Positions 48,665-56,975 of a stretch of 64,000 bases of DNA are shown here, one piece after another. The DNA is taken from positions 186,001 through 250,000 of the forward strand of contig NZ_AAYB01000001.1 of NCBI RefSeq assembly GCF_000169435.1, read 5' to 3'. The notes beneath the pieces were generated by a model, which did not search any database, was not told the DNA's origin, and saw only the letters and a list, made by a program, of their open reading frames with translations. Origin of the DNA: Roseobacter sp. CCS2. GTDB taxonomy: Bacteria > Pseudomonadota > Alphaproteobacteria > Rhodobacterales > Rhodobacteraceae. The first letter of the stretch is position 1. The number at the start of each line of letters is the position of its first letter. Position numbers and translations under genes: made by a program.

Positions 48665-49567
48665 ATGTCGGACATCAACCTAAAGCTGTTGCAATCATTT
48701 CTCCTTGTCGCTCAGCATGGTAGCTTCCGCCGTGCGGCCGAAACGGCAAGGCGCTCGACCGCCGCGATCAGTATGCAAATCAAGGAATTGGAAGATCAGG
48801 TCGGCATGCGGCTGTTTGTGCGGCAACCCAAAAAGGTCACCCTGACCCCGAATGGCCACCTCCTTTATGAAAAAACTGCCCGCGCGATGCGTGATATTGA
48901 CGATGGATTTCAGTCCCTGTCCGATATTGCCACGTTGCGGCAGTCCGCCGTTACAATCGCCTGCGCGCCAACTCTGGCCCCGAAACGCGTTGGCGGTGTA
49001 CTGACCACTTTTCGGCGTCGTTTCCCCGACAGCAGTGTCCGCCTTATTGAGGCGCCCCCGGCCACTGCACTTGAAATTCTTGAACGGCAGGTGGCCGAAT
49101 TCTATGTCGGGCCGTCCGTGTCGAACCTTAAAACCTTTACCTTCGAAAAACTGACGGACGAACCATTGCGAGCGTGCATTCCACCGGAATTTGACCGTGG
49201 CCAACGTGCAATCAGTTTCGAGGACCTCAAGGAGGTGCCGATCATTCTGCTTGATCGCTCAACCGCCATTCGCACATTGATTGACGATATTCTGCACCGC
49301 AAAAACCTGTCGTTGAATGTGGCTTACGAACTGCAAAACGCATTCACCGCCCTCAGCTTTGCGTCTGCGGGGCTAGGCGTTGCAATGTTGCCTTCGATTG
49401 CCATCGAGATGGCGGAATTTGACGGCTTTCGCGTCGTACCTTTTCGAGAGCCCGAGGCGGCGCGTTCGGTCGGTATTATTGCGGAAAAAGGGTATGTGCA
49501 GCACAACTATTCAGAACAGTTGATGCGTTTGATACGCGCAGCCTTTGTGGCGCCAGCTGACATATGA
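48665..49567 (+). CDS. LysR-family transcriptional regulator
   Basis: The 300-residue protein has the LysR helix-turn-helix (NLKLLQSFLLVAQHGSFRRA then TARRSTAAISMQIKELEDQV) and a substrate-binding domain with ELQNAFTALSFASAGLGVAM. It is divergent from the TRAP-aldehyde dehydrogenase operon, the classical arrangement for a regulator of the adjacent genes, so it probably senses the imported compound. The ATG at 48665 is the natural LysR start. It ends 26 bases before the tRNA-Leu fragment. Confidence 0.92.
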   Translation: MSDINLKLLQSFLLVAQHGSFRRAAETARRSTAAISMQIKELEDQVGMRLFVRQPKKVTLTPNGHLLYEKTARAMRDIDDGFQSLSDIATLRQSAVTIACAPTLAPKRVGGVLTTFRRRFPDSSVRLIEAPPATALEILERQVAEFYVGPSVSNLKTFTFEKLTDEPLRACIPPEFDRGQRAISFEDLKEVPIILLDRSTAIRTLIDDILHRKNLSLNVAYELQNAFTALSFASAGLGVAMLPSIAIEMAEFDGFRVVPFREPEAARSVGIIAEKGYVQHNYSEQLMRLIRAAFVAPADI

Positions 49568-49592: not shown

Positions 49593-49649
49593 TGGTGCCC
49601 GCGGCCGGACTCGAACCGGCACGGCCTTACGGCCAAGAGATTTTAAGTC
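49593..49649 (-). pseudogene. 3' part of a split tRNA-Leu(TAA) gene
   Basis: Read leftwards from 49649, the sequence is anticodon arm GACTTAAAATCTCT, long variable arm, T arm GCCGGTTCGAGTCCGGC, acceptor strand CGCGGGC, discriminator A and CCA. The 5' half is missing here: beyond 49649 the sequence is unrelated to a tRNA. The missing part is found at 52243-52282, where GCCCGCG is the exact complement of this acceptor strand. Confidence 0.92.
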
Positions 49650-49709
49650 ATTGAATAATAGACATATTACCACCTAATAGCACCTAATCAGGGTAGGTAC
49701 GTGTCAGTG

Positions 49710-49861
49710 ATGATCGGCAGGACCGATGAGGTGTCGCTGCGCAACGCCAGAGAGCGTTCGGCAGAGCTCAGACCTCTGCACTGACCGAAATCATGCTGAC
49801 CACGTCCGGCGGCGACATCCAGACCATCCAGCGCAAGCACAAGGATGACTTCATTGGCTAG
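49710..49861 (+). pseudogene. Decayed integrase N-terminal remnant
   Basis: From ATG 49710 the frame reads MIGRTDEVSLRNARERSAEL and stops at 49784. This matches the N-terminal pattern of P4-type integrases (IGxxPxVSLxxARExAxxLR). A second open stretch in another frame (EIMLTTSGGDIQTIQRKHKD) follows to 49861. Position next to the tRNA 3' fragment is where the integrase of a tRNA-inserted element is expected. The match is short. Confidence 0.45.
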
Positions 49862-49902
49862 GCTGTACCCTCACCTAAAGGACAACTTCCCCAAAAGTTC
49901 CT

Positions 49903-51375
49903 CTACAGGGCATTCTGCAAATCAAGCAAAACAATTATAGCCAACAGTAGGTAATTTAGAACCCGATGAATAGTATATGCGAACGCGACCAATCCTAGTA
50001 CTTGGATGGTAACGCGAGTTGGAGATAGTTGACTAAGTCGCGTCACAGCCAAGGGCTGCACAGCTCCAGTCACGGCACGAATTCTTGATAGAACAAAACC
50101 GAATACTAGGAAGACGTAGTCGGGGCCAACGACACTGCCGGTATCGGTCAAGCTAAGTGAACCAAAGCGAATGATCGACGCCGGTCGATCAAAGAAGCAA
50201 TAGAACTCACCTGCGGCGTTTGCGAAACGGAAAAGCAAAGGCAAGGAAAAGTAACTGTTGAACAGATCACAGACTGCCACTACCGCAATATAGATGAAGA
50301 CGGCAAACACCACACGCCAAGCCGTGAAATGGAGACCAAGCACAAATAACATAGCAGCTATTAGGGTGCCATTTATCAAGCGAAAATTACTCCAGAACTC
50401 TATCCGCGGCCCGTCGACTTGTTCTATGAGAGCATCAGAGATCAGCCAACTTCTCTTCGAACTTTCGAAAGAAAGCTCGGGCTTCTGCATCAAATCGGAT
50501 GCCTCTGCGATTTCATCTTCGGTGTTTTGGGTGGAGAAAGCGCTACCTACTCCAACCGTATATTCCGCCCGAAACCCAACCTGCGATAGACAAACTACGA
50601 CTGCCAAGACACATAAGGCAACATTCTGGTTTTTTCCGTTGAGGATTTTGCGTTGAGTCCACTGGCGGTAGATAACACCCAATGCGGTCGATGCGATGGC
50701 AAGCACAAAGAAGTCTGGAGCTGAGTATGTCAAAACAAGAAATGTCTGGAACCAGTAGTCTGGAATTCCGACACCCCTTAAAACTAAAGATTTCGACAGA
50801 TATGAGAACAGGAATAGCGCTGCTAGCGACATTAAAAAATGTCGCCTAGATGCATTTGACGCGCCAATAATGAAGGAGATGAGAACAACGAGCATTCTTG
50901 GGTCAAATGCAAATCCATTCACTGTCCAGTCAAAGATTTGTCGTTCATTAATAAATCGAAGGACTTGGAATTGCCCTTCAACAAAGAAAAATATTCCCAC
51001 AAATAGAAAACTGAGCAGGCCCAAACCGATTGAATGGCGCGAGAGGAGTTCCTTCCGGAACTGTTGGCTGTAGCTCATTTTATGAACAATCAGGTTTGCA
51101 AAAAACAGACCAGTTGGCCCAAACTCTAGTGATACCCTGACGCCGGCTTCGGTAGCTTGGCTGATGTCCAGGCCAACAAGCAACGGAAGCGTCCCCACAA
51201 TGATGTGCTTGCTATATTGAGACCCAAAACTGATTCCGCAGAAGATGGAGATGATTGGGATCAAATACTTTAGAGATAAATGGATGCCACCCGGATCGAT
51301 CGGTACATCAACTGATACTGAGATCGCCCACAGGAGTAAGACGAAGGTAAAGTCGGTCTTAGGGTATCTAGACAT
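49903..51375 (-). CDS. Polytopic membrane protein of unknown function
   Basis: The protein of about 490 residues has ten or so hydrophobic segments (for example FTFVLLLWAISVSVDVPIDP, IGLGLLSFLFVGIFFFVEGQ, LVAFAYTIHRVLNYLLLAII) separated by short loops, with one longer hydrophilic loop containing TQNTEDEIAEASDLMQKPEL. I do not recognise the family; an exporter or polymerase-like membrane enzyme is possible. Codon use is more AT-rich than the flanking genes, consistent with transfer. ATG 51375 (MSRYPKTDF) is chosen over an in-frame TTG at 51432; neither has a clear ribosome site. Confidence 0.75.
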   Translation of the reverse strand: MSRYPKTDFTFVLLLWAISVSVDVPIDPGGIHLSLKYLIPIISIFCGISFGSQYSKHIIVGTLPLLVGLDISQATEAGVRVSLEFGPTGLFFANLIVHKMSYSQQFRKELLSRHSIGLGLLSFLFVGIFFFVEGQFQVLRFINERQIFDWTVNGFAFDPRMLVVLISFIIGASNASRRHFLMSLAALFLFSYLSKSLVLRGVGIPDYWFQTFLVLTYSAPDFFVLAIASTALGVIYRQWTQRKILNGKNQNVALCVLAVVVCLSQVGFRAEYTVGVGSAFSTQNTEDEIAEASDLMQKPELSFESSKRSWLISDALIEQVDGPRIEFWSNFRLINGTLIAAMLFVLGLHFTAWRVVFAVFIYIAVVAVCDLFNSYFSLPLLFRFANAAGEFYCFFDRPASIIRFGSLSLTDTGSVVGPDYVFLVFGFVLSRIRAVTGAVQPLAVTRLSQLSPTRVTIQVLGLVAFAYTIHRVLNYLLLAIIVLLDLQNAL

Positions 51376-51671
51376 ATGACCCGACGACCGGTCATAGATT
51401 TTGAAGGTGTCAGAAATGCTCGGAAATTTCAAATTCTTAACTCAAGTTTATCAATAACACTCAACAACAACTTGACGCAGAACCCGCTGAAAAATGATCG
51501 CGCCAAAATGGCATTCGTCACCTTCGTCGCATTGTACGCGCTCGGTCAAGAGTCTTTTGCCTTCGCATAAGGCACATCGAACGTTCAGTTTCCTCACAAG
51601 TGCTATTTGCTGGTCTACAGGATCGCATGTTTCTTCGCACGATGCGCGAGAGAAAAGAAACGGAGAATACC

Positions 51672-52034
51672 ATGTTTGAAGCTGCAAGAGACCTTGTCCT
51701 GAAAGACCGCGGGAAGGCCCGCAAGGCACTCGCCGACGAGATCAAGCGGAACGAGAAGGACGAACTGGACGCTGAACTGGATCAGCTTGAGCAAGAGGCA
51801 AAAGCGGAACTCGTTGCCGAGGAGGCCGATGCCGCACGCGCGCAGCGCGCTGCCGATGCCAGACTTGCACTGGAGGCAGTGGCGGCAAAGCAGCGTTCCG
51901 CTGCGATGTCCTTTGATGCCGCCATCAAGGCTGCAAACGACGCCTTTGACATGTTGGAAGAACTTCACGGCGAGGTCGCGACGCTAAGCAAACTCGAGGA
52001 TATTGAACTAACCTCACGGGCGATACCTTCCTAA
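51672..52034 (+). CDS. Small coiled-coil protein, phage-like
   Basis: The 120-residue protein from ATG 51672 is preceded by GGAG with about eight-base spacing. It is almost entirely charged helix rich in A, E, D and K (DELDAELDQLEQEAKAELVA, EEADAARAQRAADARLALEA), typical of a coiled coil, with no signal or membrane segment. No family is recognised. It is read opposite to the membrane protein gene and towards the internal tRNA-Leu. The longer frame from 51600 lacks a ribosome site. Confidence 0.65.
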   Translation: MFEAARDLVLKDRGKARKALADEIKRNEKDELDAELDQLEQEAKAELVAEEADAARAQRAADARLALEAVAAKQRSAAMSFDAAIKAANDAFDMLEELHGEVATLSKLEDIELTSRAIPS

Positions 52035-52059
52035 GGAACTGACTTAATAGAAGGTTTAT

Positions 52060-52145
52060 TGGTGCGGGCGGGGGGACTTGAACCCCCACGGGCATTTGCC
52101 CAACAGATTTTAAGTCTGGCGTGTCTACCATTCCACCACGCCCGC
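52060..52145 (-). tRNA. tRNA-Leu (TAA), intact copy inside the element
   Basis: Read leftwards from 52145, the 86-base gene has acceptor GCGGGCG pairing perfectly with CGCCCGC, D arm TGGTGGAATGGTAGACAC, anticodon loop CTTAAAA (anticodon TAA), variable arm GGGC-AAAT-GCCC, T stem GGGGG/CCCCC, and encoded CCA. The anticodon stem has one C-U mismatch at 27-43. It differs from the split copy in acceptor, variable and T arms, so it is not a duplicate of it. It is probably the only functional TAA-reading copy in this window. Confidence 0.95.
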
Positions 52146-52242
52146 AGTCTTCAATTTTCACCATCGGGCCTATTTTGGGCCTGAAAGTCGTCTCTTAGTC
52201 GCAACGCCTTGTTTCGTATGCATAATGCTGCAAAGACACAAG

Positions 52243-52282
52243 GATTTTAAGTCTCCAGTGTCTACCATTCCACCACGCGGGC
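52243..52282 (-). pseudogene. 5' part of the split tRNA-Leu(TAA) gene
   Basis: Read leftwards from 52282, the sequence is acceptor strand GCCCGCG, D arm TGGTGGAATGGTAGACAC, and anticodon arm TGGAGACTTAAAATC, then it departs from tRNA sequence at 52242. Joined to 49649-49593 through GACTTAAAATC it gives a complete tRNA-Leu(TAA) with perfect acceptor pairing and a paired anticodon stem (GGAGA/TCTCT with one G-U). Confidence 0.9.
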
Positions 52283-52327: not shown

Positions 52328-52867
52328 TCAGAGGTCAGTGCCAACAGGTTCGGTTAAAAGTGACCGTTCTTGCAGCCAAGGGTTCATTTCAACCGCCTGG
52401 CGCAACACAATCTGCGCTTCATCATTGCGCCCCAGCCCCATGAGGGTCAGCGCTTTGCCCGACAAAGCCGCAATGTGGTTCGGCACGATTTCAAGCGTGC
52501 GGTCAAGATCGACAAGCGCGGCGTCAAAGTTACTGCTCAGATAATTGGCAAAGGCACGTTGGTTATAGCCTTCAGCATAGTTGGGGCAGTACTCTACCAA
52601 CCGATCAAGCACATGGCGCGCGCCCAAAAAATCGTAACTTGCCCGGCGCGACATGCCTTCATCCAGCATCGCCTGCGCAATCTCATCCGGTGCGTCGGTC
52701 CACATTTCCCACAATTCCTGCGTCAGCACGCGCGCATCACCTGCGCCGCGCGCCTGGCTAAGCTCAACAACAATTTCAGCGATCCGTTGGCTGTTATCTT
52801 TGACAGGCGGGCAGGTTTCGGCAAACACCGGTGCGGCGACAACGCAAAGAGGTATAATCCATTTCAT
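52328..52867 (-). CDS. Exported TPR-type protein of unknown function
   Basis: The protein of about 179 residues has a short signal peptide (MKWIIPLCVVAAPVFAE) and then helical hairpins of the tetratricopeptide type: LDRLVEYCPNYAEGYNQRAF, ANYLSSNFDAALVDLDRTLE, IVPNHIAALSGKALTLMGLG. Such small periplasmic TPR proteins act as scaffolds, but the partner is unknown. ATG 52867 is used because it gives the best signal peptide; ATG 52894 adds nine residues. It ends 46 bases from the tRNA-Leu 5' fragment and is probably not part of the element. Confidence 0.8.
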   Translation of the reverse strand: MKWIIPLCVVAAPVFAETCPPVKDNSQRIAEIVVELSQARGAGDARVLTQELWEMWTDAPDEIAQAMLDEGMSRRASYDFLGARHVLDRLVEYCPNYAEGYNQRAFANYLSSNFDAALVDLDRTLEIVPNHIAALSGKALTLMGLGRNDEAQIVLRQAVEMNPWLQERSLLTEPVGTDL

Positions 52868-52903
52868 ACCTAAATATTTGCGGCGCGGGTTCATTGGGTC
52901 AAG

Positions 52904-53476: not shown

Positions 53477-53501
53477 GGCTATCATATTGGAGTATACGGC
53501 C

Positions 53502-56500
53502 ATGCCCCGCGATCACAGCTCAGATTTACGTCACCAGATTGACCGGTCCATGTACATGGACGAAGCCACCACAGTAGCGGCCTTAGTCGACGCCGCCAAG
53601 CTGACAGATGCAGATCGCGCCCGTATTTCAGAACGTGCCGCTGATCTTGTGACCCAGATCCGTAATAGCGCTGATCCCGGTCTGATGGAGGTATTCCTGG
53701 CCGAATATGGCCTGTCCACTGACGAAGGCATCGCGCTGATGTGTTTGGCCGAGGCGCTGTTGCGCGTGCCTGACGCCGAAACCATGGATGAACTGATCGA
53801 GGATAAGATCGCACCCTCTGATTGGGGCAAACACCTTGGGCATTCAGCCTCATCTCTGGTCAATGCCTCCACTTGGGCGCTGATGCTGACTGGCCGCGTG
53901 CTGGACGATGAACAGCCCGGTCTGACCCGCCACCTGCGCAGTGCTGTCAAACGCCTTGGCGAACCGGTGATCCGCACTGCCGTCGCGCGGGCGATGCGCG
54001 AAATGGGCCGTCAATTTGTGCTGGGCGAAGATATCGGCAAAGCCATGAAGCGGGCCGAGGGTATGCAGGCCAAGGGCTTTACCTACAGCTACGACATGCT
54101 GGGCGAGGCAGCGCGTACCGATGCCGACGCCAAGGGCTATCACCTTGCCTATTCTCGCGCGATCAGCGCAATTGCGGAACACTGCACACATAGCAGTGTT
54201 GCTGAAAACCCCGGCATCTCGGTCAAGCTTTCAGCCTTGCATCCGCGCTATGAGGTCGCGCAAGAGGTGCGCGTGATGGAAGAACTGGTGCCGCGTGTCC
54301 GCGCGCTGGCGCTGCTCGCCAAATCAGCGGGTATGGGGTTCAACATTGATGCAGAAGAGGCCGACCGGCTGTCGCTGTCACTTGATGTGATCGGCGCTGT
54401 GTTGTCCGAACCGGCGCTGGCCGGATGGGATGGCTTTGGCATTGTGGTGCAAGCCTATGGCCAACGCGCCCCGTTGGTCATTGATTGCCTGCATGACATG
54501 GCAGTCCGACTAGATCGCAAGATCATGGTCCGCCTTGTGAAAGGTGCGTATTGGGACGCCGAAATCAAACGCACGCAAGTCGAAGGTATCGACGGCTTTC
54601 CGGTGTTCACAGCCAAGCAACACACCGATATCAGCTACATCAGCAACGCCCGCAAGCTGTTGGGCATGACAGATCGGATCTATCCACAGTTCGCCACGCA
54701 TAATGCCCACACCGTCGCTGCCGTGCTGGATATTGCCGAACAGATGGGTTGCGGGGTGGATGATTTCGAATTCCAACGCCTGCACGGCATGGGCGAGACG
54801 CTGCATACCATTGTGCTGCAAGCGCAAAAGACGCGTTGCCGGATTTACGCCCCCGTCGGCGCGCACGAAGATTTACTGGCCTATCTGGTGCGCAGGTTGT
54901 TGGAAAACGGCGCAAATTCCAGCTTTGTGAACCAGATTGTCGATGAAGATGTCCCACCGCAGGTCGTTGCCGCCTGCCCGTTTGACGCCATCGGCCAAGG
55001 CCCGGTTCTGCAAACCGGTCCAGACCTGTTCCAGCCAGAGCGCGTAAACTCGCGCGGATGGGATCTGACACATGCGCCAACGCTTGCAACCATAGCCGAG
55101 GGGCGCGCGCCCTATCAAAAGGCGTCTTTCGTAGGTCACCCGCTTACGTCCGAAAATCATACCTATCCGCGCAAGACGTTGCAGGACGCGCGTGCCGTTA
55201 CAAACCCCGCGATCCCGGGCGACACGGTTGGCGCGGTCCAGAACGCGTCTCAGCAAGACATCGCGGCGGCACTCGATACCGCGATCCCTTGGGCAGCCGA
55301 TGTCAAAACACGCGCTGCCGCCCTTGATGCCGCCGCAGACGCTTATGAGGCCCACGCGGACGAACTCTTTGCAATTCTGACCCGCGAAGCAGGCAAGGGC
55401 TTGCCCGATGCCGTCGCAGAATTGCGTGAGGCTGTGGACTTTCTGCGCTACTACGCAGCCCAGGCAAAAGCCGACCAGACTGCGCGCGGCATATGGACCT
55501 GCATCAGCCCCTGGAATTTTCCGCTGGCGATCTTTACCGGACAGATCGCAGCCGCACTGGCTGCGGGAAACGCTGTCCTTGCCAAACCAGCCGAGCAGAC
55601 ACCGCTGATCGCCACCCGCGCCGTTGCACTTTTACATAAGGCCGGTGTACCGACGCGCGCCCTGCAATTGCTGCCCGGTGGCGGTAATGTTGGTGCGGCC
55701 CTTACCGCTGATCCCTGCATCAATGGGGTGGCCTTTACCGGATCGACGGCCACAGCACTCAAAATCCGCAGCAACATGGCCGCGCATTGTGCACCCGGCA
55801 CACCGCTGATCGCCGAAACCGGCGGTTTGAACGCGATGATCGTGGACAGTACCGCCCTGCCCGAACATGCCGTGCGCGATATCGTCAATGGTGCCTTCAG
55901 GTCCGCCGGACAACGGTGCTCTGCCCTGCGCTGCCTGTATGTGCAGGAAGACATCGCGGATAATCTGCTGACCATGCTCAAAGGCGCCATGGACGAGATG
56001 CATGTTGGCGACCCGTGGCATCTGTCCACGGACGTGGGACCGGTGATTGACGCCGCCGCGCATCAGGGTATCGCCGATCATATCGAAACCGCCAAGACAG
56101 AAGGCCGCATCATTCACCAGATCGCTGCACCTTCTGCGGGTCATTTCATTCCCCCCACTGCCATCCGGGTGGCCGGGATTGACGAGATGACAAAGGAAAT
56201 CTTCGGACCGGTTCTGCATGTGGCGACATTCAAGGCCGCGGCATTGGACGACGTGATCGAGACCATCAATGCGACGGGATATGGCCTGACCTTCGGGTTG
56301 CACACCCGCATCGACGACCGCGTGCAAACGATTGTCGAAAAGGTGCAGGCGGGCAATATCTATGTCAATCGTGACCAGATTGGTGCGGTCGTCGGCAGCC
56401 AGCCCTTTGGTGGTGAAGGCTTGTCGGGGACTGGTCCAAAGGCCGGGGGGCCATACTATTTGCCACGCTTCACCGCGCAATCCGCACCCATAACCGATGG

Positions 56501-56975
56501 CTTCTGGGCCGGTGCGGCGGATATCAGATCAATCAAGACCCGCATGGCACAGGCTGACAAACCGGCGCCAGCGACACCCACGGACCTACCCGGCCCAACC
56601 GGAGAATCAAACCGTCACAGCACGCACCCACGCGGTGCTATTTTATGCATGGGTCCCGGGGCGAAAGCGGCGCAGGATCAGACGGGTATGGTCAAGGCAC
56701 TTGGTGGAATCGCTGTCAGCACCGAAGGCGATTTAACACCTGGTGATCTGACCGACATCGCCGCACTTGGCGGCGTCATCTGGTGGGGCGATGAAAAGAC
56801 CGGTCGTGCCATCGAACAGGCGTTGAGCGAACGCAAAGGGCCAATCACCGCGCTGATAACCGGTATGCCGGATGCCGCCCATGTGCTGCATGAACGCCAC
56901 GTCTGCATCGATACCACAGCGGCAGGCGGAAACGCCGCACTCTTGGCAGAGGTGGCAGGCCCAGCTTTGACTTGA
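53502..56975 (+). CDS. putA: Bifunctional proline dehydrogenase/L-glutamate gamma-semialdehyde dehydrogenase
   Basis: The protein of about 1157 residues oxidises proline to glutamate in two linked steps. The N-terminal part holds the FAD-dependent proline dehydrogenase barrel (YSYDMLGEAARTDADAKGYH, RLVKGAYWDAEIKRTQVEG, FATHNAHTVAAVLDIAEQM, QRLHGMGETLH). The second half holds the NAD-dependent dehydrogenase with ISPWNFPLAIFTGQIAAALA, AETGGLNAMIVDSTA and catalytic Cys in GQRCSALRCLYV. There is no N-terminal ribbon-helix-helix, so it is not its own repressor, and control falls to the Lrp regulator. ATG 53502 follows GGAG by nine bases; the TTG at 53487 is rejected. Confidence 0.95.
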   Translation: MPRDHSSDLRHQIDRSMYMDEATTVAALVDAAKLTDADRARISERAADLVTQIRNSADPGLMEVFLAEYGLSTDEGIALMCLAEALLRVPDAETMDELIEDKIAPSDWGKHLGHSASSLVNASTWALMLTGRVLDDEQPGLTRHLRSAVKRLGEPVIRTAVARAMREMGRQFVLGEDIGKAMKRAEGMQAKGFTYSYDMLGEAARTDADAKGYHLAYSRAISAIAEHCTHSSVAENPGISVKLSALHPRYEVAQEVRVMEELVPRVRALALLAKSAGMGFNIDAEEADRLSLSLDVIGAVLSEPALAGWDGFGIVVQAYGQRAPLVIDCLHDMAVRLDRKIMVRLVKGAYWDAEIKRTQVEGIDGFPVFTAKQHTDISYISNARKLLGMTDRIYPQFATHNAHTVAAVLDIAEQMGCGVDDFEFQRLHGMGETLHTIVLQAQKTRCRIYAPVGAHEDLLAYLVRRLLENGANSSFVNQIVDEDVPPQVVAACPFDAIGQGPVLQTGPDLFQPERVNSRGWDLTHAPTLATIAEGRAPYQKASFVGHPLTSENHTYPRKTLQDARAVTNPAIPGDTVGAVQNASQQDIAAALDTAIPWAADVKTRAAALDAAADAYEAHADELFAILTREAGKGLPDAVAELREAVDFLRYYAAQAKADQTARGIWTCISPWNFPLAIFTGQIAAALAAGNAVLAKPAEQTPLIATRAVALLHKAGVPTRALQLLPGGGNVGAALTADPCINGVAFTGSTATALKIRSNMAAHCAPGTPLIAETGGLNAMIVDSTALPEHAVRDIVNGAFRSAGQRCSALRCLYVQEDIADNLLTMLKGAMDEMHVGDPWHLSTDVGPVIDAAAHQGIADHIETAKTEGRIIHQIAAPSAGHFIPPTAIRVAGIDEMTKEIFGPVLHVATFKAAALDDVIETINATGYGLTFGLHTRIDDRVQTIVEKVQAGNIYVNRDQIGAVVGSQPFGGEGLSGTGPKAGGPYYLPRFTAQSAPITDGFWAGAADIRSIKTRMAQADKPAPATPTDLPGPTGESNRHSTHPRGAILCMGPGAKAAQDQTGMVKALGGIAVSTEGDLTPGDLTDIAALGGVIWWGDEKTGRAIEQALSERKGPITALITGMPDAAHVLHERHVCIDTTAAGGNAALLAEVAGPALT

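Follow-up and report, generated by a model that had tools for sequence, protein, structure and literature searches.

In the tRNA-dependent lysogeny described for mycobacteriophages in 2024 (Guerrero-Bustamante and Hatfull, mBio, PMC10865867), the sections drawn on here report a tyrosine integrase, an attB site in a host tRNA gene, a short core of 8–17 bp, a tRNA that is not reconstructed and phage tRNAs that are required. The integrase type, the position of attB, the short core and the unreconstructed tRNA recur in an element found in a 64,000-nucleotide stretch of Roseobacter sp. CCS2 (contig NZ_AAYB01000001.1, positions 186,001–250,000; ‘the window’), where a 2.6-kb insert splits the native tRNA-Leu(UAA) gene (anticodon TAA in the DNA). 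The insert is best read as the decayed remnant, or fossil, of an integrative element. We are confident that the locus as a whole records a core-targeting element that cut the native gene and supplied a substitute tRNA. The principle is that of tRNA-dependent lysogeny and is already known.

The window differs from the described systems in several respects. The actinobacterial examples, as presented in those sections, are temperate phages tested genetically, whereas the elements considered here are alphaproteobacterial, lack recognised capsid or tail genes and are known from sequence alone. The tRNA-Lys case in PMC10865867 concerns a single host gene, and Gaia targets tRNA-Leu(CAA); here the target is tRNA-Leu(UAA), the replacement is serial, fossil halves are stacked and the substitute persists after its element has decayed. 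Also alphaproteobacterial are prophages of Sinorhizobium meliloti at tRNA-Leu(UAG) that carry a tRNA-Leu(UAG), the host tRNA gene being described as substituted by one like those of unrelated species (PMC11476347, in the part cited); they share the substituted host tRNA with our element but are prophages and use another isotype, and the part cited mentions no serial replacement. The phiLM21-like prophages are described, in the portion of PMC12429752 cited, as not showing tRNA-dependent lysogeny. Prophage Lj965 of Lactobacillus johnsonii, as cited in PMC10865867, likewise leaves the tRNA unreconstructed and carries a cognate tRNA, in another phylum. Canonical tRNA islands (Islander; PMC4383910, as excerpted) share the tyrosine integrase, the tRNA target and a displaced fragment, but they restore the gene and this element does not. 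A search of the open-licence literature gave no report of serial replacement or stacked dead 5′ halves, of such elements without recognised capsid or tail genes, or of a genus with only a substitute found in 15 of 56 genomes.

A native tRNA-Leu(UAA) gene split at the anticodon loop

The two halves of the native gene (Table 1) are separated at the anticodon loop, and both contain the 11-bp core GACTTAAAATC, the copies of which lie 2,604 bp apart. Joined at this core, they form 86 nt that ARAGORN folds into a complete tRNA-Leu(UAA); all stems are paired, the acceptor stem fully, and anticodon-stem pairs also form beyond the core. This fold agrees with a preliminary description of the same DNA, in which complete acceptor pairing and joining at the shared 11 bp had been taken to restore a full tRNA. 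A search of the window genome with the joined tRNA (E up to 10) returned seven matches: the two halves, the element copy and four weak ones at the sites of other tRNAs.

The joined sequence occurs intact, identical at 86/86 positions, in four of 55 other same-genus genomes (G002, G003, G004 and G047), between tpr-lrp-putA and lysR-dctP-dctQ, the genes that flank the window halves. Because the intact gene lies in the same neighbourhood, one native gene was cut, as the preliminary description had held. It stands ~46–48 bp behind the tpr-lrp-putA side in all four genomes. The tRNA and lysR are ~55 bp apart in G004 and separated by ~0.9–1.3 kb of other DNA in the remaining three, so that the empty site for which that description had looked to relatives would be represented, close to exactly, by G004. 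Each of the four gave a single match at E ≤ 0.001, a search in which an element-type copy would score about 1e-13. Another relative, G006, has an intact native gene and a second tRNA-Leu(UAA), adjoining tRNA-Met near a contig end (G006:C17:14146-14231, L085).

Table 1. Features of the split tRNA-Leu(UAA) locus and its insert (positions in the window)
Feature	Position	Strand	Basis and remarks
LysR-type regulator, flanking host gene	48665..49567	+	locus comparison, family match
Native tRNA-Leu(UAA) 3′ half	49593..49649	-	read from sequence; matched in own-genome search with the joined tRNA
attR core GACTTAAAATC	49639..49649	-	junction reading
Element right end	49650..49694	.	direct repeat CACCTAAT-N2-CACCTAAT
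Tyrosine integrase remnant	49695..49772	+	residues 54-79, 26 aa, 73% identical to HI0040 integrase
D5-like phage/plasmid primase-helicase remnant	49769..49860	+	87% DNA identity to primase ORFs (open reading frames) of G057 (92 nt) and G396 (85 nt)
Cargo ORF el509, 509 aa	49903..51432	-	multi-pass membrane protein look (by eye)
Cargo gene el144	51672..52034	+	homologues in G396 element (60%) and in G016 directly before relaxase gene (59%)
Complete substitute tRNA-Leu(UAA), element-borne	52060..52145	-	ARAGORN; Rfam 60.2 bits
97-bp left end of the element, with conserved counterparts elsewhere	52146..52242	-	86% over 100 nt of G016 left end; promoter-like TTG-N20-TACGAA
Native tRNA-Leu(UAA) 5′ half (attL side)	52243..52282	-	read from sequence; equals 5′ part of intact gene in G002, G003, G004, G047
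attL core GACTTAAAATC, anticodon loop	52243..52253	-	junction reading
Flanking host gene ‘tpr’ (name by eye)	52328..52894	-	ORF list, locus comparison
Flanking host gene, presumably putA, source of tree	53487..56975	+	locus comparison

The substitute tRNA and host dependence

The complete tRNA-Leu(UAA) of different sequence that had been noted in the insert was found by both ARAGORN and Rfam and is 79% identical to the native tRNA. It is the sole Leu(UAA) among 38 tRNAs found in the window genome, all assigned by ARAGORN, in a list from an 11-contig assembly that lacks tRNA-Tyr and is therefore not exhaustive. No further tRNA-Leu(UAA) was found in this genome with native (E up to 10), element-type or intron-bearing queries. 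TTA is present in six of ten host genes counted, with, for example, six such codons in putA and two in tpr. Given a sole Leu(UAA) and TTA codons in host genes, the host likely needs the substitute, presumably transcribed and charged, for decoding UUA.

The preliminary description had proposed that host decoding of TTA depends on the element, which would make the element addictive. The first proposal holds as far as the gene count goes (one TAA-anticodon tRNA-Leu gene among the 38 tRNAs, and no intron version), and dependence itself would follow from that count. The second fails for the present locus: what is left of the element is a decayed, trapped fossil, with an integrase recognised only as a fragment of 26 residues. 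A tRNA-Tyr gene lies near the corresponding locus of G014 (L061:17976-18059); the list for the window genome is incomplete or the gene falls in a gap.

The remnant and its relatives

A complete relative is present in G396, a genome of another genus of the family, as a 14.8-kb element with cores 14,759 bp apart. Its order is tpr, 5′ half, an 86-bp left end, full tRNA-Leu(UAA) (starting 86 bp after the 5′-half core), cargo, an el144 homologue, a Prim-Pol/D5 primase, the integrase, right end and 3′ half. By eye, these two halves also fit a single tRNA, and the ORF after the 3′ half is one that we take to be methionyl-tRNA-synthetase-like. The integrase, which adjoins the 3′ half, is intact, 396 aa long and of the tyrosine type with an arm-binding domain (PF13356 and PF00589). 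In the window, integrase and primase fragments with the strand and order of G396 are followed by el509, el144, the tRNA and the left end; the place and strand of the integrase fragment match the complete relative, and the primase ORFs of G057 and G396 contain a D5_N domain. The insert reads as a heavily deleted, collinear member of the G396-type elements, and an integrase of that type presumably catalysed its insertion.

The right-end query matched 53 of 394 family genomes, with long matches besides the window only in G057 (92 nt) and G396 (85 nt); the remaining matches (44 nt or less) look like chance and were set aside. The direct repeat in the right end may possibly provide integrase arm sites. 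The C-terminus of el144 departs from its homologues, and the gene is probably truncated. A role for el144 in mobilization was dropped, since G396 carries it without a recognised relaxase. The el509 product has no match in Pfam, PHROGs or PADLOC; with 7 TTA and 13 CTA codons, its gene exceeds every host gene counted.

In Sulfitobacter sp. HI0040 (G523), one contig holds the 5′ half, left end and full tRNA, with an IS4/5-type transposase-like ORF at the contig end. Another contig holds the 3′ half and an integrase 69% identical to that of G396 over 274 residues; this truncated integrase stops where a transposase-like ORF begins at the end of that contig and has PF13356 and PF00589, the latter below cut-off. 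The HI0040 element also encodes a ParB-like protein and one that is terminase-small-like, assigned by PHROGs to head and packaging. The proteins scanned (Pfam: nine from G396 and six from HI0040; PHROGs: five and three) included no capsid or tail family, in a scan that covered part of the ORFs and, in HI0040, an incomplete element. PADLOC matches to an HI0040 SNF2 helicase and DNA methylase are generic, and we claim no defence system.

The same-genus genome G016 has a relaxase and a conjugation coupling protein within 13.5 kb behind its tRNA, the relaxase following an el144 homologue and possibly belonging to the element. No relaxase was recognised among the nine G396 proteins scanned. A search for the HxLRH motif near substitute tRNAs flagged two ORFs in the G016 stretch, the second being L062:633-1511; an HxLRH-motif ORF near the G016 tRNA, considered as an integrase, turned out to be the conjugation coupling protein. 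A partial integrase ORF behind the G093 tRNA was likewise rejected as a family integrase: it matched only its own locus, and the HI0040 integrase gave no match.

Attachment sites and left ends

From reading of the junctions, attL and attR share an anticodon-centred core of 11 bp in the window, 12 bp in G396 and 10 bp in HI0040. Such a core is too short for the tRNA to be rebuilt, and neither junction rebuilds one in any of the three; all three elements have a full tRNA of the matching isotype.

A 105-nt left end from G016 matches eight of 56 same-genus genomes, namely the window genome (86%) and seven others, three of which are weak (G021 and G025, 72%; G053, 59 nt only). The same query matches seven of 394 family genomes: the same-genus window genome and G014, four genomes of other genera (G205, G093, G319 and G194), and G247, which was not counted because the match spans only 21 nt. 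The four from other genera each have the 5′ half, left end and full tRNA-Leu(UAA). Every left-end site in the relatives adjoins at least one of putA, lrp, tpr and a rhomboid-like gene. The motif AACAAGGC(G/A)TT, a putative integrase arm site, is present in 12 of 14 aligned tRNA-Leu left ends, with a variant in G396 and in the first left end of G051, and it also occurs beside a tRNA-Asn gene targeted by a related integrase. The window left end and that of G046 both contain a promoter-like TTG-N20-TA..A, and those of G023, G050 and G025 a looser form; when the window left end was shuffled in a simple way, the strict form turned up in 2.3% of the shuffles, and a stricter sigma-70 scan gave no site in the left end.

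A longer att pattern matched only HI0040 and G051 among the genome contigs. Plasmids and viral contigs gave no el144 relatives. A query combining the left end with the tRNA matched 9 plasmid and 65 phage records, and among the matches listed the similarity was confined to the tRNA. The top phage match, Rhizobium phage Pasto, has a tRNA-Leu(UAA) and an integrase; in the 17.6 kb read, the core occurs once, inside the tRNA, and no left end was recognised. Pasto (MT708545; L130:9002-9084) is annotated as Autographiviridae and, with its tRNA-Leu(UAA) and tyrosine integrase, is a candidate for alphaproteobacterial tRNA-dependent lysogeny.

Serial replacement within the genus

Several relatives carry more than one broken copy of the gene. 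In G016, a decayed native 5′ half and a left end come first, then an element-type 5′ half with a left end of its own, then a complete tRNA of element type. In G051, a decayed half with a G396-like left end is followed by a native-like half with the other left end and a complete tRNA; G194 has two halves and a full gene, and the single visible half in HI0040 and G319 is already element-type. Later elements landed in the tRNAs of earlier ones, as they could because each substitute holds the same core.

Among the 56 same-genus genomes, 38 have a native-type gene (93–100% identical to the joined tRNA over 86 nt), 15 have only an element-type gene (88–100% identical to the G016 copy), two are intron-bearing and in one, G001 (83% complete), none was found. 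All of the 18 native-type loci read, out of 38, adjoin tpr or lrp. On a putA tree of 38 rows, 35 were scored (18 native, one of them from another genus; 15 replaced; two intron-bearing) and G001, G523 and G396 were left out. The replaced state needs at least seven changes, five of them forced by starred branches, on this quick tree of one gene near the site, which does not separate gain from loss. The substitutes of the window genome and its sister G016 are 88% identical, and this difference suggests that the two were probably hit separately.

Scored in 14 replaced genomes (G053 was left out), a left-over 5′ half is clear in six (the window genome, G051, G014, G016, G046 and G025) and weak in G026. 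Identity to the G016 substitute remains complete (100%) in that of G023, for example. The substitutes of G010 and G013 are preceded by a promoter motif of native type, at 41 and 38 bp, respectively, compared with 37–38 bp in three native genomes; this layout would fit a clean-up deletion between homologous 5′ halves.

Proposed mechanism and alternative explanations

We propose that a tyrosine integrase recombines a short attP core (10–12 bp, ACTTAAAATC) with the anticodon loop of the host tRNA-Leu(UAA) gene. On this reading, the host gene is divided between attL, which keeps its 5′ half, and attR, which keeps its 3′ half, with no junction rebuilding a tRNA, and the lineage survives because the complete tRNA-Leu(UAA) directly behind the element's left end takes over. 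In the window, the element afterwards decayed to 2.6 kb with its tRNA kept intact. The substitute must keep its anticodon loop and so keeps the attachment core, in which later elements could land. A wider picture, to which we lend slightly less belief than doubt, is one of serial usurpation: elements would compete for the sole UUA decoder of the host, each newcomer breaking the sitting tRNA, becoming indispensable itself and leaving the older element free to decay. The host would be left with a domesticated foreign tRNA, in some genomes placed right behind a promoter of native type, and the contest might end only through an intron in the core, such as the group I intron of G011 and G032, which would confer immunity on the gene.

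Several observations weigh against cut-and-substitute integration, or against its extension to every replaced genome. A near integrase (E ≤ 1e-70) is present in only six of 394 family genomes, and the five besides G396 have no tRNA-Leu core within about 1.5 kb of it. One of these integrases, in G113, sits at tRNA-Asn in the reconstructing mode. The missing tRNA-Tyr leaves room for an overlooked second tRNA-Leu(UAA) in the window genome. A left-over half is at native-control level in seven of the 14 replaced genomes scored (G023, G021, G050, G033, G010, G020 and G013), which makes the route of replacement less certain there. Finally, searches of G016, G014, G051 and G046 turned up no 3′ half of either the native or the element type, so the far end is lost or decayed in these genomes.

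The G113 locus bears directly on whether the window could be a canonical island with misread junctions and a restored target. Restoration is the usual mode according to the part of PMC4383910 cited, and the G113 integrase, 63% identical to that of G396, does so at its site, where a 3.4-kb stretch (G113:C1:551974-555412, L156) holds a full tRNA-Asn(GTT) and a long copy of the 3′ half. Reconstructing and non-reconstructing modes both occur among these related integrases, as described among related phage integrases in PMC10865867 in the sections cited. With only 10–12 bp shared and no restored tRNA at any junction in the window, G396 or HI0040, we give the canonical reading almost no credence, and for the window the sequence refutes it. 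Equally little credence goes to a split tRNA whose halves are still used and joined in trans. Split tRNAs joined in this way occur in some archaea, the window halves fit perfectly and the 5′ half still has a promoter-like motif upstream; but the 5′ half is in decay in relatives, where entire 3′ halves are also absent, the substitute makes a joined product unnecessary, and a recent insertion accounts for the intact halves.

Cutting and substitution also have to be set against the view that the complete tRNA is an ordinary second host gene and the split one a redundant copy into which a normal element inserted. Two TAA genes do occur in at least one relative, G006. This explanation is nonetheless very improbable: the four genomes with the identical intact gene show one match each, several genera have the substitute tied to a common left end and a 5′ half, in G396 it is enclosed by attL and attR, and no substitute lacking a left end or half was seen beside the intact native gene in the 18 of 38 same-genus native loci read. 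What kind of element was involved is less settled. The insert could be a degraded prophage, reflecting plain tRNA-dependent lysogeny by a roseobacter phage, as the integrase, the D5-type primase and the terminase-small-like and ParB-like proteins of HI0040 would suggest. The scanned G396 and HI0040 proteins include no capsid or tail family, however, the G396 element measures only 14.8 kb, G016 has a relaxase and coupling protein behind its tRNA, and viral contigs gave no match to the att pattern or el144. We regard a prophage origin as unlikely, though it deserves far more weight than the other alternatives.

These loci suggest that tRNA-dependent integration extends beyond phages and can bring about the permanent exchange of a host gene that is essential and supposedly conserved. 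The order of events can be read from stacked halves, so that it becomes possible to measure how fast elements turn over and what happens to an essential gene once it is captured. The same process accounts for tRNA fragments and for abrupt tRNA sequence changes between close relatives. It also offers a toxin-free form of host dependence, and an integrase together with a short att site and a single tRNA gene would suffice to test it.

An intron-bearing variant

Two of the 56 same-genus genomes, G011 (L063:2829-3159) and G032 (C2:3769344-3769673), have a tRNA-Leu(UAA) gene with an intron in the anticodon loop, and the two genes are 94% alike. The intron is 244 nt long in G011 and lies between positions 35 and 36, inside the core. 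It matches a group I intron in Rfam with 45 bits (E 6e-10), below the curated 50. ARAGORN run without its intron option missed the intron-bearing gene. Because the intron interrupts the core, we speculate that a gene split in this way, with no uninterrupted core, may resist the integrase. The intron-bearing gene of G011 is preceded by a native 5′ half that has changed little; that of G032 is separated from tpr by some 12.6 kb. The ~12 kb between putA-lrp-tpr and the intron-bearing tRNA in G032 (L143:1-8400) contain ORFs that, by eye, resemble type III secretion or flagellar export genes.

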